Source: Haloarcula salinisoli (GTDB lineage Archaea > Halobacteriota > Halobacteria > Halobacteriales > Haloarculaceae). Taken from it: DNA of 64,000 nt. Under the pieces are notes generated by a model, which saw only the letters and a program-made list of their open reading frames with translations, was not told the DNA's origin and did not search any database. The DNA lies in the NCBI RefSeq assembly GCF_019599405.1, contig NZ_RKLQ01000001.1:744001-808000 (forward strand), in the 5' to 3' direction. Both the position numbers and the translations under genes were made by a program. Of this stretch, positions 46,094-49,196 are shown one piece after another (position 1 is the stretch's first letter; every line of letters starts with the position of its first letter).

Positions 46094-47299
46094 ATGACCG
46101 ACGTGGTCGTCGTCGACGGCGCGAGAACCGCACACGGGGAACTACTGGGCTCGCTCGCCGGGAAGACGGCGACTGAGCTGGGTCTCACAGTCACCGAGGG
46201 GCTGCTAGAGCGGAGCGGTATCGGCCCCGACCTGATCGACTGGGTCTGCCTGGGCAACTGTGTCCAGGCCGGCGTGGGCCAGGTGCCGGCCAGGCAGGTC
46301 GTCGTCGATTCAGACCTCCCCGATAGCTGTCCAGCGACGACCACGAACGAGGCCTCCGGGTCAGGCTTGCGGGCGATTACGAACGCTATCGACCGCATCG
46401 AAACGGGCCGCGTCGGGGTGGCTATCGCCGGCGGGATGGAGTCGATGTCGAACGCGCCCTATCTGGTCCGCGAGATGCGTGGTGGCCGCCGCCACGGTAA
46501 CACGACGCTCGTGGATTCGATGATTTACGACGCGCTGTGGGACGTGAACTACGACGCCCACATGGGGACGCTCACGGACCGCATCGCTGCGGAGTTCGAC
46601 ATCGGCCGGGCACAACAGGACGAGTACGCCCAGCGGAGTAACCAGCGGGCCGGGGAGGCCATCGAGTCGGGCGCGTTCGAACAGGAAATCGTTCCAGTAG
46701 AGGTTAGCGGCGCGTCGGAGACGCGCCGAGCAGACGGCGAAGCCGTCAGTGACCACCTCGTCACCGAGGACGAGGGACCGCGGCCCGAGACGACCGCAGA
46801 GGACCTCACGGCGTTGCCGCCCGCCTTCGGCGATGACGGGACCATCACCGCCGGTAACGCCTCGAAGCTCTCGGATGGCGCGGGCGCGGTCCTGCTGGCC
46901 GACGCCGAGGCCGCCAACGCCGCCGGTGTCGGTCCGATGGCCCACGTCGAGGAGTACGCGGTCGCCTACCGCGACCCCGCCGAGTTCTCGCTGGCGGTCT
47001 GTGACGCCCTGCGGGCCCTCTTCGAGCGGGCGGATATCGGTGTCGCCGACGTCGACCACTTCGAGCTCAACGAGGCCTTCGCCGCTCAGATGGTGTACGT
47101 CGCCGACGAACTCGACATCCCGGCGGCGAAACACAACCCGCTGGGCGGGGCCGTGGCGCTTGGCCACCCCATCGGTGCCAGCGGTGGCATTCTCACGACC
47201 ACGCTGGTGTACGCCATGGAACACGGGGATCTGGATAGAGGGGTCGTGGCGATGAGCGTCGGCGGCGGGGGCGCGCTGGCGATGTCTTTGACGCGGTGA
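46094..47299 (+). CDS. Thiolase-family protein lacking both catalytic cysteines
   Basis: The 401-residue protein has the thiolase fold and many hallmarks: GGMESMSNAP, NEAFA, and GHPIGASGG with the catalytic His. At the nucleophilic Cys position (N-x-x-C-G-S-G) it reads NEASGSGLRA, and at the second Cys position (C-x-G-G-G) it reads SVGGGGALA; both are Ser. Residues 206-219 are an in-frame insert encoded by a double hairpin. The last part of the gene is the first unit of a 68-base tandem array. It may be a non-classical acyltransferase or an inactive homologue. Confidence 0.9.
   Translation: MTDVVVVDGARTAHGELLGSLAGKTATELGLTVTEGLLERSGIGPDLIDWVCLGNCVQAGVGQVPARQVVVDSDLPDSCPATTTNEASGSGLRAITNAIDRIETGRVGVAIAGGMESMSNAPYLVREMRGGRRHGNTTLVDSMIYDALWDVNYDAHMGTLTDRIAAEFDIGRAQQDEYAQRSNQRAGEAIESGAFEQEIVPVEVSGASETRRADGEAVSDHLVTEDEGPRPETTAEDLTALPPAFGDDGTITAGNASKLSDGAGAVLLADAEAANAAGVGPMAHVEEYAVAYRDPAEFSLAVCDALRALFERADIGVADVDHFELNEAFAAQMVYVADELDIPAAKHNPLGGAVALGHPIGASGGILTTTLVYAMEHGDLDRGVVAMSVGGGGALAMSLTR
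46709..46750. repeat. In-frame 42-base double-hairpin insertion in the thiolase gene
   Basis: Hairpin 1 pairs GGCGCGTC (46709-46716) with GACGCGCC (46720-46727), loop GGA. Hairpin 2 pairs GACGGC (46733-46738) with GCCGTC (46742-46747), loop GAA. It encodes GASETRRADGEAVS, a stretch not present in related thiolases as I know them. Ends are set by analogy with the element in the aminotransferase gene. Confidence 0.6.
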
Positions 47300-48026: not shown

Positions 48027-49196
48027 ATGACAGGATTCTCCAGTCGCGTCGAAGCCGTCTCCATCTCGGGTATCCGTGAAGTGTTCGAAGCCGCCGGCGA
48101 GGACGCTATCAACCTGGGGCTGGGGCAACCGGACTTCCCGACCCCCGACCACGCCCGCGAGGCCGCAATCGAGGCCATCCAGTCGGGGAAGGTCGACGCC
48201 TACACCTCCAACAAGGGGACGCTCGAACTCCGCGAGGCCATCGCAGAGAAACACGCACGCGATAACGACCTCGACGTCGACCCCGAGGATATCATCGCCA
48301 CCTCCGGCGGGAGCGAGGCACTGCACATCGCGCTGGAGGCCCACGTCGATAGCGCGGGACATCGTCCCGCGAACGAGCGGACGCAGTCCGAGAGCGCCGG
48401 CCAGGAGGTCATCTTCCCCGACCCCGGCTTCGTCTCCTACGACGCCTTGACCCATCTCGCCGGCGGGACGCCGAAACCAGTCGGCCTGCGCGAGGACCTG
48501 ACGATGGCGCCCGAGGCCGTCGAGGAGGCAATCACCGACGACACCGCGGCGTTCGTCGTCAACTCCCCCGCCAATCCGACCGGGGCCGTCCAGTCCCCCG
48601 AGGATATGCGGGAGTTCGCCCGCATCGCCGACGAACACGACGTGCTCTGTATCTCCGACGAGGTGTACGAACACCAGGTGTTCGAGGGTGAGCACCGCTC
48701 TCCGGCCGAATTCGACGAGTCGGGCAACGTCGTCGTCGTCAACGCCTGCTCGAAGGCCTACTCGATGACCGGCTGGCGGCTGGGCTGGGTCACCGGCGCG
48801 ACCGACCGCATCGAGCGGATGCTCCGGGTCCACCAGTACGCCCAGGCCTGTGCCTCCGCGCCCGCACAGTACGCTGCCGAGGCGGCCCTGACAGGACCTC
48901 AGGACCCTGTCGCGGAGATGCGGGAAGCCTTCCAGGAGCGCCGGGATATCCTCCTTTCGGGGTTCGACGAGATGGGGCTGGAGTGTCCCACACCCAAGGG
49001 GGCGTTCTACGCGATGCCGAAGGTCCCCGAGGGGTGGGTCGACGAGGTCATAGAGCGGGGCGTCGTCGTCGTTCCGGGCGACGCCTTCGGCGAGAACGGC
49101 TCGGGTTACGCCCGCATCTCGTATGCGACCGATACCGAGACGCTCCGCGAGGCGATCGATATCATGGCCGACGCCACTGCAGCGCTGCGAGAGTAG
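48027..49196 (+). CDS. Aspartate-type aminotransferase (PLP fold type I) with in-frame palindromic insert
   Basis: The 389-residue protein has the class I/II hallmarks: NLGLGQPDFPTPDHA, the TSNKGTLELREAIA segment, VNSPANPTGAV, ISDEVYEHQVF and the PLP Lys in NACSKAYSMTGWRLGWV. Residues 110-123 (GHRPANERTQSESA) interrupt an otherwise standard segment; without them it reads DSAGQEVIFPDPGFVSYD, as in relatives. The substrate may be aspartate, alanine or an aromatic amino acid. Confidence 0.93.
   Translation: MTGFSSRVEAVSISGIREVFEAAGEDAINLGLGQPDFPTPDHAREAAIEAIQSGKVDAYTSNKGTLELREAIAEKHARDNDLDVDPEDIIATSGGSEALHIALEAHVDSAGHRPANERTQSESAGQEVIFPDPGFVSYDALTHLAGGTPKPVGLREDLTMAPEAVEEAITDDTAAFVVNSPANPTGAVQSPEDMREFARIADEHDVLCISDEVYEHQVFEGEHRSPAEFDESGNVVVVNACSKAYSMTGWRLGWVTGATDRIERMLRVHQYAQACASAPAQYAAEAALTGPQDPVAEMREAFQERRDILLSGFDEMGLECPTPKGAFYAMPKVPEGWVDEVIERGVVVVPGDAFGENGSGYARISYATDTETLREAIDIMADATAALRE
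48355..48396. repeat. In-frame 42-base double-hairpin insertion in the aminotransferase gene
   Basis: The insert is bounded by AGCG at 48351-48354 and at 48393-48396. Hairpin 1 pairs GCGGGAC (48354-48360) with GTCCCGC (48364-48370), loop ATC. Hairpin 2 pairs CGGAC (48378-48382) with GTCCG (48386-48390), loop GCA. Its removal restores the family sequence exactly in frame. Confidence 0.75.

Follow-up and report, generated by a model that had tools for sequence, protein, structure and literature searches.

The extra segment in an aminotransferase gene of Haloarcula salinisoli is one copy of a dispersed Halobacteriales family of very small double-hairpin repeats, for which dispersal, precise insertion, conservation of the palindromes and restriction to one reading phase are demonstrated. 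The best explanation overall, and one that we consider probable, is that these repeats are a mobile family tolerated in a single coding phase. For 25 years, in-frame palindromic elements have been a curiosity known largely from rickettsiae and proteobacteria; the present family is a distinct archaeal one, found in most Halobacteriales, including culturable, genetically tractable genera. It is apparently undescribed: in line with what a first, sequence-only reading of this DNA had stated, a literature search, with subscription papers and preprints outside its scope, found no paper describing elements of this kind in archaea or, more narrowly, in haloarchaeal genes. Coordinates (Table 1) refer to the window, i.e., the whole 64,000-nt stretch of DNA that was analyzed.

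Table 1. Positions of the aminotransferase and thiolase inserts and of their parts
Feature	Position in window	Strand	Basis or remark
Aminotransferase class I/II (PF00155), 389 aa	48027..49196	+	Pfam domain and orthologue alignment
Inserted element, 45 nt / 15 codons (AGC...AGC; SAGHRPANERTQSES)	48351..48395	+	Alignment with empty orthologues
Hairpin 1, CGCGGGAC-ATC-GTCCCGCG, 8 bp, 3-nt loop	48353..48371	+	Fold; compensatory form known
Inter-hairpin linker AACGAG	48372..48377	+	Copy comparison
Hairpin 2, CGGAC-GCA-GTCCG, 5 bp, 3-nt loop	48378..48390	+	Fold and copy comparison
Match to covariance model R1, 58.2 bits	48348..48398	+	Holds by construction, the copy being a member of the seed alignment
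Thiolase gene	46094..47299		
Thiolase double-hairpin insert, 14 codons, in frame	46700..46741	+	Comparison with sister species (G017) and genus
Thiolase hairpin 1, CGGCGCGTC-GGA-GACGCGCCG	46708..46728		Followed by linker AGCA
Thiolase hairpin 2, GACGGC-GAA-GCCGTC	46733..46747		Right arm also in empty site

The extent of the aminotransferase insert was set by its orthologues, which have 373 to 374 aa. Only the window gene and those of G025 and G026, i.e., 3 of the 32 Haloarcula genomes, carry the insert, each being 15 residues longer, and the alignment with the nearest solved relative, Pyrococcus AspAT (PDB 1gd9), leaves a 15-residue gap at the insert. The sister species H. rara (G017 = NZ_CP119785), the closest relative of the window genome by gene comparison, has the gene without it. 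The alignment, which had been proposed earlier as a check, thus showed the residues to be absent from most orthologues, their presence being scattered in the order. The filled site reads GTC GAT [AGC GCG GGA CAT CGT CCC GCG AAC GAG CGG ACG CAG TCC GAG AGC] GCC GGC CAG, and the empty site of H. rara reads GTC GAC^GCG GGA CAG (GTCGAC^GCGGGACAG), so that the extra segment is 45 nt long and lies directly 3' of the Asp codon GAT at 48348-48350. One further orthologue (G018:C1:3380747-3381863) is split over two frames by a frameshift or an assembly error.

The sequence-only reading had placed a 42-base insert at 48355-48396, in frame, made of two hairpins with three-base loops, flanked on both sides by AGCG and restoring the expected sequence when removed. 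That segment is indeed in frame in the pyridoxal phosphate (PLP) aminotransferase ORF, and both hairpins were recovered, but the length is corrected by the orthologues to 45 nt (15 codons). Removal of the 42 bases does not restore the ancestral sequence, since orthologues read HVD-AGQEV (HVDAGQEVIFPDPGF) at the site, so that neither a serine nor either AGC is ancestral; the 42-nt length and the restored DSAGQEV were an artefact of a reading in which no orthologues were compared. Both AGCG copies are present, but they are not ancestral flanks: AGC is missing from the empty site, which rules out a target duplication of AGCG.

Comparison of copies at this site showed that the pairing is maintained. 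Hairpin 1 of G131 takes the compensatory form CCCGGGAC-ACA-GTCCCGGG, and hairpin 2 of G080 and G111 takes a 7-bp form, ATCGGAC-GCA-GTCCGAT. The AACGAG linker departs from the family consensus GGGCAG, and this variant is confined to aminotransferase copies. No match to the 38-nt core of the insert is expected in shuffled sequence, and the 64-kb window harbors only three hairpins with a 3-nt loop and arms of at least 8 bp, two of which are each accompanied by a second one; these two pairs are the aminotransferase insert and the thiolase insert about 1.6 kb upstream, the latter missed in the sequence-only reading. The thiolase insert has different arms and is missing from H. rara as well as from most other genomes of the genus; in G025 (L382) and G026 (L368), the same element sequence lies in another thiolase paralogue. 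In an AlphaFold2 model of the aminotransferase (mean pLDDT of 71.5), insert residues 109 to 123 have a pLDDT below 50 and fall between helix 95-106 and strand 127-131, the peptide being thus predicted to be disordered.

Searching the source genome with the insert by BLAST gave no convincing exact or near-exact second copy, because the arms vary, and a structural pattern and a covariance model were therefore needed. We searched 392 Halobacteriales genomes with a pattern in which only the central arms were fixed (GGGAC-N3-GTCCC-N10-GGAC-N3-GTCC), obtaining about 80 matches in 58 genomes; the spacer, left free in the pattern, was nonetheless conserved as TCGGGCAGYC, and the reversed pattern gave no match in the same 392 genomes. 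A covariance model (R1), built from 33 copies and assuming 3-nt loops, as does the unit scan, matched 24 of 26 relatives. At an E value of ≤1e-4, R1 had matches in 197 of 243 Halobacteriales genomes and none in about 101 genomes of the phylum from outside this order. The search for related sequences suggested by the sequence-only reading thus yielded at least 27 matches in the source genome at this threshold, and others across haloarchaea; since the best 24 to 150 candidates per genome were scored, these copy numbers are lower bounds.

Taken together, the copies define the layout RAC^-AGCG-[hairpin, 3-nt loop]-CGGGCAG-[hairpin, 3-nt loop]-GAC, in a unit that is usually 45 nt long but can measure 42 to 51 nt. 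Arms differ widely (GGAAC, GGAGC, GGCGC, TCGAAC), while linkers are unchanged. Two pairs left free in the search pattern covary, namely, columns 8-22 (A-T 16, C-G 8, T-A 6, G-C 2) and columns 30-44 (C-G 16, T-A 15), and the whole structure counts 52 doubly changed cells versus 16.9 in shuffles. The hairpin 2 loop is GNA in 54 of 84 units; 3-nt loops of the GNA type are a class that is stable in DNA. Units also occur in tandem with a 45-nt period, and intergenic hairpin arrays carry linkers identical to those of the gene copies. Viral spread of the units was rejected, as searches of IMG/VR and of phage records gave no related copies.

Within genes, the units are read in sense phase 0 in 64 of the 68 cases with a clear coding context, as judged from flanking codon periodicity, a sample that includes some orthologous copies, so that the 64 are not all independent. 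All gene copies compared have a length that is a multiple of 3 and are open in phase 0, and they encode a hydrophilic peptide, D-S-x-G/E-x-x-P/S-S-x-S-R-T-x-S-D-D. We infer that the favored phase yields a soluble, disordered acidic or polar loop that a surface turn of a high-salt protein would tolerate, which may be why copies persist in genes, while copies in nonzero phases and at unsuitable sites would have been purged. The repeats themselves would then be selfish or neutral mobile DNA.

The host genes encode an aminotransferase, a beta-CASP nuclease, MerA, a thiolase, putative histidine kinases and an aconitase and are unrelated to one another. Four comparisons of filled and empty sites were concordant: the aminotransferase, the beta-CASP-like gene, plasmid merA and the right end of an IS605/TnpB element. 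At the beta-CASP-like site (GTC GAC^GAC GGC GAG), the insert measures exactly 45 nt in several families and 42 nt in G371. At the merA site (GTC GAC^GAC ACG ACC), Natrinema zhouii carries an insert of exactly 45 nt, by which it exceeds the other plasmid copies, and the insert of Salinigranum rubrum measures 51 nt. Loops were of 3 nt throughout in the aminotransferase, beta-CASP and N. zhouii merA copies. In the S. rubrum copy (L356 1201-1257), hairpin 2 is extended symmetrically by 3+3 nt and the reading frame is kept. The IS605/TnpB right end (GTGAAC^GACGGGG) is empty in G015 and longer by 42 nt in L244. The unit is preceded by GAC, AAC or GAT in 76 of 84 cases and ends, after hairpin 2, in GAC in 68 of 84, a combination (RAC before, GAC at the end) that is inseparable from a duplication or microhomology of 2 to 3 nt. 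A third closing stem formed by the target flanks was ruled out, as the flanks showed no excess complementarity.

Several units lie inside the terminal palindromes of IS605/TnpB-type transposons (L267 1984-2034, L244, L248 and L271), TnpB being confirmed by Pfam only beside L267; these units are distinct from the transposon ends themselves. The end hairpin region of TnpB transposons encodes guide-RNA scaffolds, and the units enlarge this end hairpin, which would belong to the scaffold.

A longer in-frame double-hairpin subfamily occupies a second site of the beta-CASP-like gene, after FHT (L339-L349), the G120 copy reading CGCGGAAGC-TTC-GCTTCCGCG ... GAATCGACTC-GGC-GAGTCGATTC; these second-site inserts suggest that several subfamilies resembling the Rickettsia palindromic elements (RPEs) exist. 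In the source genome, units are also found in four putative histidine-kinase ATPase domains (L262-L265; C1:1055743, C1:1132183, C2:1134742 and C6:53391). Three of them sit at an N-box-like motif (NAVEHG), whose native codons make up one arm of hairpin 1, and L262 carries units in tandem.

Among the 392 Halobacteriales genomes, the identical aminotransferase site harbors a matching insert outside the genus in G131, G080 and G111. G131, from the same genus as G196, is probably a Halomicrobium, because the same gene, likewise empty, is found in H. katesii; G080 and G111, which group in the tree with H. paucihalophilus, whose gene is empty, are probably Halalkalicoccus. On a tree of 118 aminotransferase genes, from which the insert columns were left out, 6 changes of insert state are most parsimonious and at least 4 are forced by well-supported branches. 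G131 is filled and the near-identical G196 is empty, and over codons 87 to 185 they differ by two codons only, both directly flanking the insert. The linkers of the aminotransferase copies (AACGAG, AGCGAT and GACGAT) were absent from all other pattern matches, and because the linker is private to them, all these copies most likely descend, judging from sequence, from a single insertion. This one event would have been followed by spread between genera through short-tract recombination. The scattered presence in orthologues could thus be due in part to recombination of old alleles rather than to new insertion; in the aminotransferase, it is such recombination that the private linker favors. Within genera, conservation at third codon positions is higher in the insert (87 to 100%) than in the flanks (about 60 to 73%), whereas between genera the insert is about as diverged as its flanks; a recent transfer of the insert alone between genera is thus unsupported.

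As to how the units move, we tentatively favor, at clearly less than even odds, a model in which they would travel as single-stranded DNA. Both hairpins would fold in this strand, and a candidate enzyme, an IS200/605-type (HUH) transposase acting in trans, would do the cutting and joining. This model fits the hairpins, the fixed preceding triplet, the lack of a long target duplication and the GNA preference in hairpin 2. However, IS200/605 transposases usually recognize specific end hairpins, while the arms of the units are hypervariable. In addition, some arms equal the host sequence at the site (GCCGTC in the thiolase, GCGGGAC in the aminotransferase and GTGGAACACGG in the histidine kinases), a match compatible with local templated growth and with transposition alike. 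Template switching at native arms may aid the growth or correction of units.

The nearest haloarchaeal relatives in kind, compared by description, are the PATEs and SMRs of Haloquadratum, which are transposase-free and palindromic (PMC3119063). That the units derive from them, either as a minimal terminal-only remnant of an IS605/PATE element or as a short SMR targeting IS605 palindromes, is unlikely but deserves consideration. PATEs bear palindromes and have terminal-only forms of 52 bp, and SMR-A inserts without target duplication in near-terminal IS605 palindromes, just as some double-hairpin units lie inside TnpB-end palindromes. However, in the parts of that report on which we draw, SMR-A is about 110 bp long with inverted terminal repeats and one SMR-B is 80 bp, so that PATEs and SMRs (52 to 110+ bp) are longer than the units of 42 to 51 nt, and in-frame gene copies like those of the double-hairpin units are not described there.

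Local fold-back or template switching, by which a polymerase would make the palindromes in situ with no mobile unit at all, is disfavored and rather improbable. The GCCGTC arm of the thiolase insert is native in G017, the N-box codons of the histidine kinases make up a hairpin arm, and perfect yet variable arms are what palindrome correction is expected to leave. Nevertheless, linkers and unit length recur across unrelated genes and families, the unit usually begins after RAC and finishes with GAC, the empty sites of merA and of the beta-CASP-like gene contain no matching arm, and palindromes arising de novo would not have CGGGCAG and CGGAC-GCA-GTCCG in common.

It is improbable that the explanation lies at the protein level only, with a useful or tolerated 15-residue loop spread by ordinary homologous recombination and the palindromes a by-product of codon usage. 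Haloarchaea do recombine widely, and the aminotransferase copies, with their private linker and a divergence between genera close to that of their flanks, would fit. The compensatory arm changes, the conservation of third codon positions of the insert beyond that of the flanks within genera, the copies in intergenic arrays and TnpB ends, and the identical unit type in nonhomologous genes all argue against it. Finally, an RNA-level element (translational bypass, intron or structural RNA) that is not a translated insert is very improbable: stable hairpins and covariation would suit it, but gene copies are multiples of 3, open in phase 0 and conserved in their hydrophilic peptide, three copies submitted to Rfam 15 matched no covariance model at an E value of ≤1, and the 3-nt loops, mostly GNA in hairpin 2, belong to a DNA-stable class.

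Among known systems, RPE-1 to RPE-10 are palindromic repeats found in frame in many unrelated genes, to which they add peptide segments, and have no known dedicated transposase (PMC10969869, PMC3733652). The analogy drawn in the sequence-only reading holds, in that the haloarchaeal units are likewise palindromic DNA inserted in frame, in one phase, in unrelated genes, encoding an additional peptide that is predicted to be a disordered loop. By description, the double-hairpin family is thus a functional archaeal analogue of the RPEs. In contrast, RPEs are about 150 bp long (PMC10969869), a length that the units do not match, and come from an AT-rich bacterium, while the units consist of two 3-nt-loop hairpins with hypervariable arms and fixed linkers. 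GTAG/CGTC-tagged REPs (Di Nocera et al. 2013; PMC3733652) are also short hairpins with intragenic dimers, including RPE-4/6, some of them in frame. However, CGTC REPs occur in bacterial phyla and have stems of 8 to 9 bp, a CCA-like tail and loops of 4 to 5 nt, a loop size not seen in the aminotransferase, beta-CASP and N. zhouii merA copies, on a model that assumes 3 nt. CGTC does appear beside the stem on the other strand (GACG, columns 46 to 49; GAC in 68/84 and G at column 49 in 54/84), but this is expected anyway from Asp codons and may simply be that. The mitochondrial double-hairpin or repetitive hairpin-forming elements of Allomyces and sponges (PMC2800124) share two hairpins per unit, complementary substitutions, a scattered distribution and tandem hairpins but are mainly intergenic or located in rRNA, unlike the phase-constrained coding family described here.

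It is conceivable, though we would put it below an even chance, that the units represent a class of minimal mobile elements present throughout the order and moving as single-strand DNA. Each would consist of two hairpins with trinucleotide loops, whose arms are interchangeable, and would insert after RAC, its sequence having been shaped to give a harmless polar loop in one of the six phases. Such elements would be stealth parasites of coding DNA, growing in tandem by 15 codons, with several subfamilies and protein loops across the proteome. Some of the odd indels seen when haloarchaeal proteins are aligned are explained by the family, and as tractable genera and clean filled/empty pairs between close relatives are at hand, both the movement of the element and the effect of selfish DNA on enzymes are testable.

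Other repeats were encountered in these searches. The GGGACAATGTCCC repeats of contig L211 are unrelated to the double-hairpin units. Intergenic arrays of 3-nt-loop hairpins occur at L225 (source genome C1:276865-277270) and elsewhere, and a noncoding class of 57 to 59 nt (GAGGGACC-N3-GGTCCCTC ... GGGCGGC-N3-GCCGCCC) forms long intergenic arrays (L268-L278) and is common in the source genome. Among hairpins with arms of 8 bp, those with loops of 3 and 5 nt are enriched (85 and 66, respectively), compared to about 25 at 4 and at 6 to 8 nt.
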